This document shows, piece by piece, positions 53,315-63,308 of a stretch of DNA of 64,000 bases. Position numbers and translations under genes: made by a program. Source of the DNA: Desulfomicrobium baculatum DSM 4028 (GTDB taxonomy: Bacteria > Desulfobacterota > Desulfovibrionia > Desulfovibrionales > Desulfomicrobiaceae); the NCBI RefSeq assembly GCF_000023225.1, contig NC_013173.1, positions 3,536,501 to 3,600,500 on the forward strand, read 5' to 3'. Each line of letters begins with the position of its first letter. The stretch's first letter is position 1. The notes beneath the pieces were generated by a model that saw nothing but the letters and a program-made list of their open reading frames with translations, was not told the origin of the DNA and searched no databases.

Positions 53315-53350
53315 AAAAGAGGCCATTCGGGAACGGGTGGCCTCTTTGTT
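53315..53350 (+). terminator. Terminator after the M48 gene
   Basis: AAAAGAGGCCA (53315-53325) and TGGCCTCTTT (53338-53347) form a stem with T-rich flank. It ends 11 nt before the next ATG, so it also forms part of that gene's leader. Confidence 0.75.
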
Positions 53351-53360
53351 TGAGGGAGAT

Positions 53361-55715
53361 ATGCAGATAAAGATATTCATTTTGACGGTTATGTTCGCGT
53401 GCCTCTCCAGTCTGGGCGGCTTCGCCGTGGCCGAAGAGGCCCAGCCCGTTCCTGAGAACGTGACGGTTCTCTCCTCTTTTTTTCAGACCAAGGTCAAGGA
53501 AGTTGCCGATCTGCAAAGAGATATGGATCTTTTGCAGGCCGCGCTTGAAACGCAGGAGGAGGGCTTCAAGGCCGCCCTGGATTCTGCCCGGAGTCGCCTG
53601 CAGACTCTTGAGATCATGGCTCGGATGGTCAAGACGAACCCGTACGACATGCGCGTGGCCCTGGCCGAGGCCACGTACCTGCAGTTGACCTTGACCAAGG
53701 ATTCCCAGCCCCTTGAGGCCCTGGCCAAGGAGATAGGGTCGAAGGCGGTCACCATCGACGCCCTGCAGGAGGACTTGGAGCGCAAATGGGCCTCAGGCCT
53801 GGATAAATCCGTGCGTGACGACGTCCAGGGCATGCGCAAGAGCGTCGCTGCCGTGGACAGGCAAGCGCAGGATTTAAGGACCCGGGTGGACAAACTGCAA
53901 GCCCAGATGGTCGAAATCCAGACCCGCACCGCCGAATGGGTGGCCACCTTTCAGACCCAGTTGCCCATGATCTGGAGAGCGGAGTTTTTGGACGCCAAGG
54001 ACTTCCGGCTGCTGCCCGCAACCGGCGCGGACGTCCGCAAGGATCTCGTGGACTGGTTTTCGAACCTGAGGGTTCTGTTTGTCAGCCAGTATTCTTCCGT
54101 GGCCCAGGAGCGGGAAGACTGGGTCGGCATGTTCGTGCTTTTCTGGCTGCCCTTTATCTTTATTGGCTTTGCCGCCTATCGATTTCTGGAGGACGTGTTT
54201 GAAAACGCCCGCGCGGGCGGACGAATGACCTCGGCCTTCGGCATCCTTTGTCTGTCCCTGGCGCTGTCCCTGCTGGCCGCTTTTCTCGCCGGGCAGGTCA
54301 AGCAGACCTCCCTGCTTCTGGTCGCCACGCACGTGCTCATGCTGCTCGGGGTACAGGCCCTGGCCTGGGTTTTCCGCAACGTGCGCGGGCGGTTGCAAAA
54401 AGACAGTTTGCAGCCGTTGCTGCCGCTGGTCTTTTTGTCCCTTAGCGTGGCGGTGCTGGATATCCTGCGCCTGCCCCAATGGATGGAGCATCTCGCCTGG
54501 GTGTGCCTGGTGGTGCTCAGCAGTCTTTTTTTCGGGATGATCCAGCCCGAACTGCGCTATGAACGCCTCATCCGGCGGGTGCATCCCTATGCGATGGCGA
54601 TCCTGGTGGCCGTGGCCGTGCTCGGCTGGGGCAATCTGGCCGTGCTGGCCAGCACCCTGTGGGGCGTGCTGGCCTTGGCGGTGCAACTGGGGATCGGCGC
54701 ATCGAGCGTGGTGCGGGTGGTGTTCGAAAAACTCGACAAGACCGGCTTCAAGGCGCTGGTGGCGGATCTGGCCGTGACCTTCCTGACGCTTTTTGTCTGG
54801 CTGTTCGTGGTGCTCGGGGTCATGGCCTGGATCTCGATCAACCTTGGCACCAACGTTGTTTATGAAAAGCTGTCGACACTGGAATTGAACTGGGGTGACT
54901 TCTCCTTCAATTTCCTGCGTCTTGGCTTTGTCCTTCTGCTGTTTCAGGTTGTCCGTTCCCTGGCCCTGGCCTGGAAAACGGTCCTTGATAGCGAGAATTT
55001 GCGCTGGAAAAATATCGATCACGGCGCGGCGGCTTCGCTCCAGCGCATAGGAATCTATTGCCTGTGGCTGCTCTATGGCCTGTTGACCGTGAACCTGCTC
55101 GGCATCAGCCTGACCAATTTCGCGGTCATCGCCGGTGGTCTTTCCGTGGGCATCGGCTTTGGCATGCAGGCCATCTTCAGCAACTTCATCAGCGGACTCA
55201 TCCTGCTCTTTGACCGGGCCATTCAGGCCGGGGACGTGATCGAGGTCAACGGAGTCTGGGCCAAGGTCATGAGCGTGAACATCCGCAACACCGAGGTCCA
55301 GACCTTCGAAAACGCCAAGATATTTTTGCCCAACTCGACCCTTATCGCGAACCAAGTCACCAACTGGACGCACCGCAACGATGTGCGCATCCGGCGGGAC
55401 GTCCTTGTGGGCGTGGCCTACGGATCTGATGTGCAGCTGGTCAAGAAGATCCTGCTGGAGGCGGCCTCCGATCACCCTGCCGTCATGTCGAGCCCCGAGC
55501 CCTGGGTCATTTTCAACGATTTCGGGGCCAGCTCCCTTGATTTCATCCTGCGCTTCTGGGTGCGGCACGTTGATCTTGGTCTCTCCTCGTGTTCGGAGAT
55601 TCGCGAGGTCATCGAAGCCAAATTCCGCGAGCACGGCGTGGAGATTCCTTTTCCGCAGATGGATGTGCATATGCGTCCCGGTGACGGGGTGCTGCAGGTC
55701 AACTCCAAAGAATAA
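53361..55715 (+). CDS. Large MscS-family mechanosensitive channel (YbdG/MscK-like)
   Basis: A 784-residue inner-membrane channel. Signal peptide (IKIFILTVMFACLSSLGGFAVA) and a long periplasmic coiled-coil region (about 30-250: KVKEVADLQRDMDLLQAALETQEEG..., LRTRVDKLQAQMVEIQTR), then about ten hydrophobic helices. The MscS core follows at about 595-700: LTNFAVIAGGLSVGIGFGMQAIFSNFISGLILLFDRAIQAGDVIEVNGVWAKV with the pore-lining glycine/alanine helix, then the beta domain (NTEVQTFENAKIFLPNSTLI) and the alpha-beta C-terminus. It opens under turgor stress. GAGGGAG before ATG. Similar to the large MscK/YjeP group, although it lacks a potassium-sensing domain. Confidence 0.92.
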   Translation: MQIKIFILTVMFACLSSLGGFAVAEEAQPVPENVTVLSSFFQTKVKEVADLQRDMDLLQAALETQEEGFKAALDSARSRLQTLEIMARMVKTNPYDMRVALAEATYLQLTLTKDSQPLEALAKEIGSKAVTIDALQEDLERKWASGLDKSVRDDVQGMRKSVAAVDRQAQDLRTRVDKLQAQMVEIQTRTAEWVATFQTQLPMIWRAEFLDAKDFRLLPATGADVRKDLVDWFSNLRVLFVSQYSSVAQEREDWVGMFVLFWLPFIFIGFAAYRFLEDVFENARAGGRMTSAFGILCLSLALSLLAAFLAGQVKQTSLLLVATHVLMLLGVQALAWVFRNVRGRLQKDSLQPLLPLVFLSLSVAVLDILRLPQWMEHLAWVCLVVLSSLFFGMIQPELRYERLIRRVHPYAMAILVAVAVLGWGNLAVLASTLWGVLALAVQLGIGASSVVRVVFEKLDKTGFKALVADLAVTFLTLFVWLFVVLGVMAWISINLGTNVVYEKLSTLELNWGDFSFNFLRLGFVLLLFQVVRSLALAWKTVLDSENLRWKNIDHGAAASLQRIGIYCLWLLYGLLTVNLLGISLTNFAVIAGGLSVGIGFGMQAIFSNFISGLILLFDRAIQAGDVIEVNGVWAKVMSVNIRNTEVQTFENAKIFLPNSTLIANQVTNWTHRNDVRIRRDVLVGVAYGSDVQLVKKILLEAASDHPAVMSSPEPWVIFNDFGASSLDFILRFWVRHVDLGLSSCSEIREVIEAKFREHGVEIPFPQMDVHMRPGDGVLQVNSKE

Positions 55716-56308: not shown

Positions 56309-56767
56309 TCATTCGCGCCATGTGAATGTGAATTGGCAGCACGGATGGTCTTGCATGATGGTTTGAGAGCGCCGCATGGACAGGCAGGGACTGTAGCCGT
56401 TGGCGAACGGTTCATCGCGAGCGCAGGAGAGGATGAAACCAAGCTCGGGGTTCAGGCCCATGCCGGCATAGGCGCGTGCGTAGGCGCAGTCCGTGACAGT
56501 GAAGGTGAGAGTGGAAGCAGCCAGGCGGACGTCTCTTATGGTCAGGGCGTCATCTTCCTTCCAGCGTTCAAGGATCGTCGCGAAATGTTCCAGGGTCGGC
56601 CCATGCGGGGCCTGGCGGGCAAATGCTTGGCCCGCGGTCATGGCGTCGGCCTGGATGGCTGCGGTGAGAATTTTCTTGGCCGACTCCGGGCTCATGTTTT
56701 CCAGCAAGGAATTCCAGATTCGGGCGACAAGTCCGGCTTGGGCTGTGCGCGCGGCGATCATGCTCAT
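56309..56767 (-). CDS. ATC-hydrolase-like protein (L-2-amino-thiazoline-4-carboxylate hydrolase family)
   Basis: A 152-residue cytoplasmic protein. The C-terminal half carries the family-like end: VTDCAYARAYAGMGLNPELGFILSCARDEPFANGYSPCLSMRRSQTIMQDHPCCQFTFTW, with conserved Cys, Arg and the DHPCCxFxF box. The N-terminal half is helical (LENMSPESAKKILTAAIQAD). In characterised relatives the enzyme opens a thiazoline ring during cysteine formation; most family members have no shown substrate. AGAGG precedes the ATG at 56767. Divergent from the CULT-domain gene with only about 50 nt between starts, so the pair may share control. Confidence 0.72.
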   Translation of the reverse strand: MSMIAARTAQAGLVARIWNSLLENMSPESAKKILTAAIQADAMTAGQAFARQAPHGPTLEHFATILERWKEDDALTIRDVRLAASTLTFTVTDCAYARAYAGMGLNPELGFILSCARDEPFANGYSPCLSMRRSQTIMQDHPCCQFTFTWRE

Positions 56768-56820
56768 GGGGCCTCTTTGCTTTCGGTGGATACTGGGATA
56801 CTGGGCGGAGAATGTTCACA

Positions 56821-57225
56821 ATGGATGTTTCCGCATGTTTTCGGGAAAGCGATTTCCCCGCCCAAGGCCCGGTTTTGGAGGACATGGACAGCTCCGAACT
56901 GGACGAATCCGGCCGCAGTGCCCTGCTTTGCCGGACCTGTGGCCAACCCGTGACCCACCTCCGGGACCGGATCGCAGTGGGTGGAAAGCATGTGCATGCC
57001 CTGTTCAACCCCTCGGGCATCCTTTTCGAGGTCGGCTGCTTTGGCCAGGCTCCGGGATGCCGCTTCGAGGGGGAATTCACCCATGCCTTCACCTGGTTTG
57101 CGGGTTACGCGTGGCGTTTTGCCATGTGCCGCCGCTGCGCCGCCCATCTCGGATGGGAATACCGCGGCGCGGACGGGGGCTTTGCGGGGTTGATCATGGC
57201 CGAACTGCGGGAGTCGCAGTCATGA
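56821..57225 (+). CDS. Bacterial CULT (cereblon-type ligand-binding) domain protein
   Basis: A 134-residue protein. Its core is LLCRTCGQPVTHLRDRIAV, then HALFNPSGILFEVGCF, HAFTWFAGYAWRFAMCRRCAAHLGWEYRG, FAGLIMAEL. This matches the CULT fold of cereblon: two CxxC zinc half-sites (CRTC and CRRC) and an aromatic cage from the three Trp of FTW, YAW and LGW. Eukaryotic cereblon binds thalidomide and cyclic imides through this cage; bacterial homologues bind the same type of ligand but their role is unknown. ATG at 56821 chosen for spacing from GGAG; ATG at 56812 is an alternative. About 35 N-terminal residues are outside the domain. Confidence 0.82.
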   Translation: MDVSACFRESDFPAQGPVLEDMDSSELDESGRSALLCRTCGQPVTHLRDRIAVGGKHVHALFNPSGILFEVGCFGQAPGCRFEGEFTHAFTWFAGYAWRFAMCRRCAAHLGWEYRGADGGFAGLIMAELRESQS

Positions 57226-57273
57226 CTTGTCTTTATCTTTGGGCTGCAGACCGCAGCTCTTCGATGCCGGGCC

Positions 57274-57363
57274 TCAGCCCTGAATGCCGATTTTCGGAAA
57301 CACGACCTTGACCAGCACCACCCAGATGCCGACCAGAAGCAATATGTACAATAAGCTTTCCAT
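57274..57363 (-). CDS. 29-residue single-helix membrane peptide
   Basis: Open frame of 29 codons: MESLLYILLLVGIWVVLVK then VVFPKIGIQG. One transmembrane helix with a Lys near its end and a short polar tail. AGGGAGG lies 5 nt before the ATG, a near-perfect ribosome binding site, and the frame ends in a proper TGA. It lies alone on the minus strand between the CULT and tatD genes. I do not recognise it, but the site quality and the helix make it a credible small protein. Function unknown; small regulators of membrane complexes look like this. Confidence 0.7.
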   Translation of the reverse strand: MESLLYILLLVGIWVVLVKVVFPKIGIQG

Positions 57364-57426
57364 TCCAACCTCCCTGAAGTTGTGTCCTGACTTCTTTTCA
57401 TGCGCACGCCGGGGGGCGGAGTCAAC

Positions 57427-58275
57427 ATGCACGGGCGAAATCAAGGCATGAACGGCGCGGATTCTTTACTCGCGTCCGGTCTGCCTGACCTCGTGGACGC
57501 CCATTGCCACCTGCAGGACGGCTTTTTGCGTCACGCTCTGGAACCTGCCTTGCTTCGGGCCCGCGCCGCCGGGGTGCGCATGATGTGCTGCAACGGCACC
57601 CACGCAGGAGATTGGCGGTATGTGCTGGGGCTTGGGCGCAGCCACGCCGACATCTGCGTGTCCCTGGGTCTGCATCCCTGGTATGTGGGAGAGCGGGGGA
57701 CCGATTGGCTGGCCCGCCTTGAGGAGTTGGTGGCGGACAATCCCGTCGGGATAGGCGAGATCGGTTTGGACAACGCTTTGGACGCGCGCAACGACGTTGA
57801 GCAGGAAGAGGTTTTTTTGGCCCAGATGGAGCTGGCTGTGCGTTACAGGCGTCCCGTCACCATCCACTGCCGCAAGGCCTTCGGCCGTTTGGCGGATCTG
57901 ATCGGAGCCATGCGCGAGCGGCCGCCGTATATGATGCTGCATGCCTATGCCGGGTCCCATGAGATGGTCCCGGTTTTCGAGAAGCTGGGCTTTTACATTT
58001 CCATTTGCGCCTCCATCACCAGGACCGCGAACCGCAAGGCGCGTACGGCCTGCGTCCGGGTTTCGCCCGACAGGCTGCTGGTGGAGTCCGACAGCCCGGC
58101 CATCGCGCCCGTGGGCGTGGATTTCGAGCGCAACGAGCCTGCCTATCTGCCCATGGTGGTCGATGTGCTGGCAGAGTTGCGGGGGGAGAGACCGGAGGTG
58201 GTGGCGGCGCGGACGGCGGCCAATGCAAGGCTGTTTTTCCGGTGTTGCGCGGGCGGGGACGCGGCTGCGGAATGA
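57427..58275 (+). CDS. TatD-family metal-dependent hydrolase/DNase
   Basis: A 282-residue TIM-barrel hydrolase. LVDAHCHLQD (HxH metal motif), VSLGLHPWYVGE, VGIGEIGLDNA (metal Glu), RRPVTIHCRKAFG, MMLHAYAGSHEMV and LLVESDSP (metal Asp) in order. TatD proteins are 3'-5' exonucleases or generic amidohydrolases. ATG at 57427 follows GGAG; ATGs at 57400 and 57448 are alternatives. A palindromic repeat begins 4 nt after its stop codon. Confidence 0.92.
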   Translation: MHGRNQGMNGADSLLASGLPDLVDAHCHLQDGFLRHALEPALLRARAAGVRMMCCNGTHAGDWRYVLGLGRSHADICVSLGLHPWYVGERGTDWLARLEELVADNPVGIGEIGLDNALDARNDVEQEEVFLAQMELAVRYRRPVTIHCRKAFGRLADLIGAMRERPPYMMLHAYAGSHEMVPVFEKLGFYISICASITRTANRKARTACVRVSPDRLLVESDSPAIAPVGVDFERNEPAYLPMVVDVLAELRGERPEVVAARTAANARLFFRCCAGGDAAAE

Positions 58276-58723: not shown

Positions 58724-59497
58724 ATGATGCGTTTTGCCCGGACCATGCAGCTTATCGGCGAGGAAGGGTTGACCAGGTTGCAAGGTGCCACCGTGGCCGT
58801 GTTCGGTCTGGGGGCCGTGGGTTCCTATGTGGTCGAGGCCCTGGCCCGGGCCGGGGTGGGAAGCCTCGTGCTTTTTGATCACGACACCGTGAGCCTGTCC
58901 AACATCAATCGCCAGCTCTTTGCCTTGCAGTCCACCGTGGGCCTGTACAAGGCCGAGGTCGCCAAGGAGCGGGTGCTGGACATCAACCCGGACTGCGCCG
59001 TGGAGGCGCGGATTCAGTTCGTGGATGGTGAGAATGTGGCCGGGCTGATGGAGCCGCGATTCGACGTGGTGGTGGACGCCATCGACGGGGTCAACTCCAA
59101 GGTCAACCTTATTGTGGCGGCCCGCGAGAAGGGGCTCGCGGTGGTGGCGAGCATGGGCGCGGCGGCCAAGCTTGATCCGTCCAAGATCAAGGCCGCGGAC
59201 ATCTCCAAGTCCTTCATGTGCCCTCTGGCCCAGATCATCCGTAAGCGGTTGCGCCGTCGGGGCGTGACATCGGGCGTGCGCTGCGTCTTTTCGACCGAGA
59301 CGGCGCAGAACAAGAACGAGCCCGTCATCGAGGAAGCGCCGGAGCAGGGCGTCAGCGGTCGGCCGCGTGCGCCCATCGGCTCCATCTCCTACCTGACGGG
59401 CATGTTCGGGCTGTTCGTGGCCAGCGAGGTTGTGCGCGTCCTGCTCGGCGGGTTCGAACCCGTCAACTGCGATAAAGACACCAAGGGGGAAGAATGA
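58724..59497 (+). CDS. tcdA: tRNA threonylcarbamoyladenosine dehydratase (TcdA/CsdL)
   Basis: A 257-residue E1-like enzyme that cyclises t6A37 of tRNA to ct6A using ATP. Rossmann motif VAVFGLGAVGSYVVEALARAGVGSLVLFDHDTVSLSNINRQLFA with the catalytic Arg, VVDAIDGVNSKVNLI, MGAAAKLDPSKIK, and C-terminal GSISYLTGMFGLFVASEVV. Start at 58724 or the adjacent ATG 58727, both after GGAG. Overlaps the next gene by 4 nt (ATGA). No CsdA/CsdE partner is in the window. Confidence 0.93.
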   Translation: MMRFARTMQLIGEEGLTRLQGATVAVFGLGAVGSYVVEALARAGVGSLVLFDHDTVSLSNINRQLFALQSTVGLYKAEVAKERVLDINPDCAVEARIQFVDGENVAGLMEPRFDVVVDAIDGVNSKVNLIVAAREKGLAVVASMGAAAKLDPSKIKAADISKSFMCPLAQIIRKRLRRRGVTSGVRCVFSTETAQNKNEPVIEEAPEQGVSGRPRAPIGSISYLTGMFGLFVASEVVRVLLGGFEPVNCDKDTKGEE

Positions 59498-60979: not shown

Positions 60980-62053
60980 TCAGACTTCAGCCAGCTTGCG
61001 CTCCCAAATTTTTTGCTGCGCCCTGGTCTGGGGCCAGGTCAAATTATCCTCGAAACCGTGGGCCATGTCGGGGCGGACTGAAATGATGCGTTCCAGGCCG
61101 TGCCGCGCAATGGATACGTCCACCAAATCCCCGTGTTTTCTGGCCTTGGGGGAAAAGGATGCCAGGCAGGCCGCCGCCTCGGCCAGGATCTCCTCCGTCC
61201 AGTCCTGTCCGGGGATCGGGACGCCGACAGCATTGGGGCCGGGGAAATTTTTGAGCACAAAGACGTACTGCTCGGGGCTGACCAGCTTCAAGAGTTTTTG
61301 GTTGTCCTTGTGATCCCGGCCCATGACCATCCAGTGGTCGGTGACCGCGTCCGCCTCCCTGCGCCAAAGCTGGCGGCCGACGTTGGCCAGATCGAAATAT
61401 GGGCTGAGCGGCTTCGGAAAGGCCCGCAATATGGGCCAGTAGCGCCGGGCGGATTCCCGTTCTCCCAGGCGACACCCGCCGGCCTGAGTGGGGATTTTGG
61501 TGACGCCCAGTTCCTTGGCCAGGGCGTATTGCCCTTTGCGTCCGCGTCCGACCAGGGACCGCAGTTTGGCGCGATCGACCAGGCCGGACTCCTCCATGGG
61601 CGTGATGGGGAGTAGTCCCGCGCTTAAGGGGCGCAACAGCAGGTCGCGCACATCGGCGTCGTTGCGGATGATGTTCAGGGTGTCGGCGCGTTGGGACATG
61701 GGGCGCTGCCCGAGGACCTCGCCGGAGATGAGATACGAGGCGCCGTAGACCGGCAGAAGTTCCTTGGCCCGACGCAGCATGAGGATCTTGCAGTCGACAC
61801 AGGGGTTCAGGACCTTGCCGAAGCCATGGGGCGGAAATGCGGCCATGAGGTCCACGAACTCCTGACCGACGTCGATGATGGTAATGGGAATACCGTATTC
61901 CCGTTCCCATTCGGGCACCTGGTCCGGCTTGCCGAAAAAAGGGCTGATAAAATGCAGCCCGAGAACCTTGTGTCCGAGGCTTTGCATCAGCTTGCTGGAC
62001 AGGATGCTGTCCAGACCGCCGGAAAAAAGTGAGAGCGCGTCAAAAGTGTTCAT
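60980..62053 (-). CDS. PP-loop ATPase, MnmA/ThiI-like, with two conserved cysteines
   Basis: A 357-residue protein starting NTFDALSLFSGGLDSILSSKLM, the PP-loop (SGGxDS) of ATP pyrophosphatases. KVLNPCVDCKILMLRRAKEL resembles the NPC-x-x-C motif of MnmA, and TQAGGCRLGERESARRYW carries a second cysteine, consistent with a thiol relay or zinc site. The last 120 residues (HWMVMGRDHKDNQKLLKLV, QYVFVLKNFPGPNAVGVP) look like an NFACT-R/DUF814-type RNA-binding domain. Likely a tRNA thiolation or related RNA modification enzyme; the target base is unknown. Start at 62053 because it begins at the PP-loop domain; the longer frame has no domain sequence. Confidence 0.82.
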   Translation of the reverse strand: MNTFDALSLFSGGLDSILSSKLMQSLGHKVLGLHFISPFFGKPDQVPEWEREYGIPITIIDVGQEFVDLMAAFPPHGFGKVLNPCVDCKILMLRRAKELLPVYGASYLISGEVLGQRPMSQRADTLNIIRNDADVRDLLLRPLSAGLLPITPMEESGLVDRAKLRSLVGRGRKGQYALAKELGVTKIPTQAGGCRLGERESARRYWPILRAFPKPLSPYFDLANVGRQLWRREADAVTDHWMVMGRDHKDNQKLLKLVSPEQYVFVLKNFPGPNAVGVPIPGQDWTEEILAEAAACLASFSPKARKHGDLVDVSIARHGLERIISVRPDMAHGFEDNLTWPQTRAQQKIWERKLAEV

Positions 62054-62246
62054 GACCCGTGCTGCTAGCCAAAGCCCGAAGGCGGCGCAAGGATGAAAAA
62101 TACATACAAGCCCCCCATTTTCACGCACTGCGCGGGAATTGTAAGAAATTCCGGATCGCCTGAAGAATTGTCTTCCAAAACCATATTTGCTACGAATCAC
62201 TGCTTGTCCGTTTTTCGGAAAACCCCCAACTCTCATGGAGCTGCTC

Positions 62247-63308
<1,062 letters not shown>

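Follow-up and report, generated by a model that had tools for sequence, protein, structure and literature searches.

Free-standing bacterial proteins consisting of a CULT domain, the thalidomide-binding domain of cereblon, have been used as crystallographic stand-ins for human cereblon (CRBN). The closest described relative of the protein examined here is MsCI4, cereblon isoform 4 of Magnetospirillum gryphiswaldense (MGR_0879; PDB 4V2Y, 5AMH), which according to the available portions of two reports binds thalidomide, deoxyuridine, and uridine (PMC4287342, PMC4449219). The residues that form its cage are named W79, W85, W99, and Y101 in the accessible text of PMC4287342. The gene divergent from the CULT gene described here belongs to PF14196, the 'ATC hydrolase' family. 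Hydrolysis of L-ATC to S-carbamoyl-cysteine has been described for Pseudomonas (PMC10821248, available part), and the PF14196, V4R, and HNOB domains have already been related to one another via a methanogen domain, with a cysteine cluster in common (PMC5847659, available part).

The CULT gene and its described relatives

The window, a stretch of 64,000 nucleotides of the Desulfomicrobium baculatum DSM 4028 genome, contains a stand-alone CULT open reading frame (ORF) at 56812..57225 on the plus strand and a PF14196 ORF at 56309..56767 on the minus strand, both at the places assigned to them in a preliminary description of this DNA. Read from its first ATG the CULT ORF encodes 137 aa; the 134 residues of the preliminary description are counted from the second, at 56821. 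Of the two, the first ATG has the stronger case as the start codon, since the second is missing in loci L008-L010 of the genus, where the first is still found 44 nt from the neighboring gene. Residue numbers below nevertheless follow the 134-aa count.

The best match of the CULT ORF in a PDB sequence search was MsCI4 (E 4.7e-25), while human cereblon chains were recovered at E values of about 1e-10 to 3e-8. No family exceeded its cut-off in a Pfam scan of the ORF, the best being Yippee-Mis18 at 19.9 bits vs 26.6, and the best NCBIfam match had an E value of only 0.14. Four putative zinc-binding cysteines form two CxxC half-sites (C37 and C40, C103 and C106), and W92, W98, W112, and Y114 align with W79, W85, W99, and Y101 of MsCI4. 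The two half-sites and the three-tryptophan cage previously noticed in the 134-residue protein are both present in alignments with MsCI4, in which the zinc and cage residues of the two proteins are the same. Outside the first ~30 residues, which were predicted at low confidence, the protein consists of the CULT domain.

A model of the protein was generated with AlphaFold2 and compared with known structures by Foldseek and VIA superposition. Block means of pLDDT were 92-99 for residues 31-130 and 49-61 for residues 1-30. The best Foldseek match was MsCI4 in complex with thalidomide, and the top five rows, all MsCI4, superposed with VIA Z scores of 20.0-20.5 at 1.0-1.6 Å. The model thereby shows the beta-tent fold of the CULT family (Z about 20 to MsCI4). 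Among the matches listed, human CRBN superposed with Z scores of 17.4-18.7 at 1.1-1.8 Å. A superposition on human CRBN had been suggested as a check; the model superposes with a Z score of about 18. The cage tryptophans are present, and the objection that they might be lacking fails.

The Desulfomicrobium protein and MsCI4 have in common a stand-alone domain, the zinc cysteines, the cage residues, and a near-identical predicted fold, at ~41% identity over the domain. Unlike MsCI4, the Desulfomicrobium protein carries the low-confidence N-terminal extension of ~30 residues, and its gene adjoins a PF14196 gene. With the thalidomide-binding domain of human CRBN it has in common the fold, the zinc site, and the cage, at 26-28% identity over the aligned part; the LON domain and the DDB1-binding region of cereblon, the CRL4 substrate receptor, are both absent from the bacterial ORF. 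Within the genus the CULT gene is under purifying selection, with dN/dS values of 0.07-0.35 across eight pairs. The gene is best read as a further representative of an established family, in which the imide- or uracil-type pocket has probably been conserved.

Candidate ligands and the search for a partner

We favor, at a probability of roughly 0.72, the reading that the protein is a stand-alone CULT ligand-binder with an imide- or uracil-like ring in its cage, and that the PF14196 gene is its neighbor through inherited synteny. The protein, probably cytosolic, would have the MsCI4 fold with a single structural zinc, and its three tryptophans would hold a small imide- or uracil-like ring, whether of a free compound or of the terminus of a damaged peptide. 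It would most likely act alone, and the divergent PF14196 gene would lie beside it as a consequence of synteny inherited within Desulfomicrobium. The class of ligand is suggested by analogy with MsCI4, to which the protein is about 41% identical.

CULT occurs in 130 of 348 genomes of the bacterium's class; it is also present in contigs labeled as several other phyla. Clustering of the genes around CULT in 119 of 120 loci (the remaining locus, L159, lacks CULT because its contig ends) yielded groups confined to single lineages, the exceptions being broad families, ABC transporters among them, whose positions vary. Immediate neighbors of at least 80 aa outside the genus, cut to 420 residues, numbered 214, from which 28, mostly near-duplicates, were removed by hand. 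A Pfam scan of the resulting 186 found no recurrent family among the first 25 listed for each of the two neighbor sets, the commonest occurring in 3/116 and 3/70. Because neighboring genes were delimited simply by the longest ORF, some of them are spurious and a weak association could have escaped notice. The candidate of a recurrent partner gene was rejected, as only lineage-local synteny was found in the 119 loci and 186 neighbors, and bacterial CULT behaves as an orphan single-domain protein. No title or abstract start in the literature covered, which excluded most subscription journals, reports a gene neighborhood or partner of a bacterial CULT protein, and the words operon and neighborhood are absent from the available part of PMC4287342. 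Gene neighborhood therefore gives no answer on the role of bacterial CULT across 119 loci, and that role is to be sought by biochemistry.

A narrower role, which we consider possible but only tentatively, is that bacterial CULT proteins, like eukaryotic cereblon, read C-terminal cyclic imides, an aspartimide or glutarimide with which a protein ends after damage or modification by PIMT. The cage identical to that of MsCI4 is consistent with such a role, as is the statement, in the accessible part of PMC13001092, that C-terminal cyclic imides bind cereblon and can be generated by PIMT (PCMT1). Furthermore, PIMT (E < 1e-30) was detected in 126 of the 130 CULT-bearing genomes of the class vs 174 of the 218 CULT-less ones (p 2e-6), a contrast that is, however, largely due to incomplete genomes and one genus. 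Two of the 13 genomes that are at least 90% complete and have no strong PIMT match do contain CULT (G034, G234), and outside genus g47 CULT is present in 2 of 4 near-complete genomes without strong PIMT. In addition, PIMT occurs almost throughout the class, and the neighbors of CULT include no recurring Pfam family. Co-occurrence with PIMT was in the predicted direction but was rejected as support for cyclic-imide reading, since nothing of it is left in near-complete genomes outside one genus.

It is doubtful that bacterial CULT binds free uracil, uridine, or another small metabolite in order to buffer or sense pyrimidines. The binding of deoxyuridine and uridine by MsCI4, as given in the available text of PMC4287342 and PMC4449219, argues for such a function, but no pyrimidine-metabolism family occurs among the first 25 families of either neighbor set, and in the part of PMC4449219 that is available its authors found no biological context for uridine.

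The divergent PF14196 gene and its genomic setting

The protein encoded at 56309..56767 (152 aa) matches PF14196 over its full length (84.2 bits vs a cut-off of 28.1, E 2e-23). Its likeness to the ATC hydrolase family consists of this match and of three conserved cysteines, C94, C115, and C144, which are invariant in an alignment (A3) of 26 sequences, all from the bacterium's class. The gene is under purifying selection within the genus (dN/dS 0.17-0.33, eight pairs), and the PF14196 tree groups the genus copies with a support of 100/99; its deeper branching, with long and poorly aligned rows (L175, L179, L182), was not used. A PDB sequence search with the protein returned no significant relative. 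By Foldseek and VIA-align, the predicted model (mean pLDDT 95) was matched, at Z scores from 10.8 down to about 6.5, to the MopR, PoxR, and DmpR aromatic sensor domains, to Bet3/TRAPPC3, and, with lower scores, to V4R and H-NOX proteins. Because the top matches have Z scores near 10 at 3.5-4.3 Å, and values below ~13 can be common for helical models, the predicted likeness to sensor domains is at most one of shared fold. A function taken from the fold match was dropped, as such Z scores in mostly helical models may reflect only a common arrangement. Of the earlier characterization as an ATC-hydrolase-like gene, the family assignment was confirmed, whereas 'hydrolase' is only a label given by family membership, the predicted fold being one common to ligand sensors. 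A ligand-binding role for the protein is as plausible as a hydrolase role.

The PF14196 proteins of two named MAG loci, L015 and L016, are identical to those of G015 and G013, by which the genus was assigned as Desulfomicrobium. Among 16 Desulfomicrobium genomes searched, CULT was found in 13 and PF14196 in 11. The two genes are divergent neighbors in 10 of the 11 PF14196-bearing genomes, equal to 10 of the 13 that bear CULT. The eleventh is G006 (63% complete), whose contig breaks off directly after the PF14196 match, and the 16 genomes include no clear instance of PF14196 in the absence of CULT. CULT without PF14196 occurs in G004, G008, and G014, and neither gene was detected in G007 or G009. 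Conservation in a single strain, which had been put forward as grounds for discarding the pair, is thus excluded by its presence in 10 of the 13 CULT-bearing genomes. Eleven genus regions of about 13-20 kb were compared, and in all eight that carry PF14196 the genes M48-MscS-PF14196-CULT-TatD follow one another in the same order. In the window this conserved block includes an MscS-type mechanosensitive channel beyond the PF14196 gene as seen from CULT (53337..55715, plus strand), a TatD-family DNase downstream of CULT (57400..58275, plus strand), and a ThiF-family protein (58724..59497, plus strand). Since the whole block is syntenic in 8/8 regions, the CULT-PF14196 pair is conserved to no greater extent than the genes around it.

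A Sir2-family gene is located between CULT and TatD in five of the eleven genus regions (L184, L187, L190, L191, L192), and no Sir2-family match was found in the other six, including L189, the nearest relative of the window. Downstream of the block, a ThiI-family match and weak NFACT-R matches are present at 60980-62248 of the window on the minus strand.

The start codons of the CULT and PF14196 genes are separated by a 44-nt spacer (56768..56811). In the genus comparison the spacer measures 44 nt in 7/10 loci and 45 nt in 3/10, and CTCTTTGCTTTC was found near the PF14196 gene start in 10/10 loci compared. Both proteins diverge to about 60% identity across the genus loci while the spacer stays at 44-45 nt; a spacer almost fixed in this way in 10/10 loci despite protein divergence would fit joint control, and joint control of the two genes through the short spacer is possible. 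A promoter region of about 50 nt common to both genes had been proposed, of which the short distance between start codons stands at 44 nt; a promoter scan of 56600-57450, which covered the sigma-70 type only, gave no match. A sigma-70-type promoter common to both genes was accordingly rejected for that interval.

Outside the genus, no PF14196 ORF was found in the examined flanks of 113 CULT loci (109 distinct), flanks that extend at least 1.5 kb on both sides in 99 of the 113 loci and are 75 bases at their shortest. Across the class, 59 of 348 genomes contain both genes (odds ratio 2.1, p 0.001), and with the genus set aside 49 genomes contain both (odds ratio 1.9, p 0.01), both values ignoring ancestry; this co-occurrence favors a link, weakly. 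Where the places of the two genes were compared by eye, in 48 of these 49 non-genus genomes (G174 was left out), none were near each other, the shortest distance among the 20 same-contig cases being about 63 kb (G089). Linkage of CULT with PF14196 beyond the genus was rejected on the 0/109 distinct loci, within the flanks examined, together with the distant places elsewhere. The setting of PF14196 in other genera was sampled in 20 loci hand-picked for spread from 120 genomes with a match. There a lolA-type gene is its divergent neighbor in 8/20 loci (L163, L167, L170, L172, L174, L177, L180, L181), and in 6/20 its other flank holds an ftsK-type gene, which is on the opposite strand. Two tested members of the lolA-type cluster match LolA, and the one tested member of the ftsK-type cluster is FtsK. 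The lolA/ftsK neighborhood is a recurrent site of the uncharacterized PF14196 family in other genera. In the genome of the window, lolA is 1.7 Mb from the pair, and the sole PF14196 match is the gene beside CULT.

These distributions bear on whether the two genes form a functional module, in which CULT would detect a cyclised amino-acid-like compound that the PF14196 protein hydrolyses or also senses, with the short spacer providing joint control. Adjacency at 44-45 nt in all ten informative genus loci, class-level co-occurrence above expectation, and two small proteins with predicted folds known from small-ligand binders would agree with a module, which we nonetheless regard as very improbable: adjacency is limited to one genus (0/109 distinct loci elsewhere, and none near in 48 non-genus genomes with both genes, down to the ~63 kb of G089), three members of the genus have CULT but no PF14196, the adjacency is explained by the block being syntenic as a whole, and PF14196 has another recurrent neighborhood. 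The functional link suggested in the preliminary description was not supported, the pair being confined to one genus whose block is conserved whole, with PF14196 found by lolA/ftsK elsewhere; a link of CULT to its PF14196 neighbor is not supported beyond synteny. Likewise very improbable is a co-regulated Desulfomicrobium pair by which a single class of cyclised amino acids or peptide ends, of the imide or thiazoline type, would be both sensed and cleared; if true, this would constitute the first natural pathway for free-standing bacterial CULT proteins. A tempting lead, the pairing of CULT with an ATC-hydrolase-like gene, is removed.

Tandem CULT arrays with altered cages

All three cage tryptophans are present in 117 of 128 CULT ORFs (113 of 124 distinct). 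The 11 altered ORFs come from L146-L149, L160, and L161 of genus g54 and from L085, whose contig is named Desulfovibrio sp. Nine are part of arrays in which two or three CULT genes stand in tandem; L160 and L161 contain an altered copy only. Genus g54, a member of the Desulfovibrionales, has two or three CULT matches in 12 of 14 genomes. These arrays represent a natural experiment that promises more for the function of CULT than does the CULT-PF14196 pair. In four of the five arrays (L146, L147, L148, L149, L085) one copy retains the full set of residues checked; the corresponding ORF of L148 keeps the cage tryptophans, has His in place of Asn63, and is missing the first CxxC in the ORF as called. 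Asn63 and Trp92 are lost in the 11 altered copies and Pro64 in eight, whereas Trp98, Trp112, and the four cysteines are kept. Judged from these substitutions, the altered tandem copies look like divergence of ligand preference after duplication.

Departures from the usual CULT gene were also observed within Desulfomicrobium. The CULT ORF of G004 (L013:1441-1728) is short by ~45 residues, including the first CxxC and the pocket Asn-Pro, and is probably a decaying copy, in a near-complete genome without PF14196. In G008 (L012:638-1863) the gene directly before CULT is a distantly related TatD paralog, with 33% identity to the TatD of the window, an arrangement unlike the other genus loci seen.
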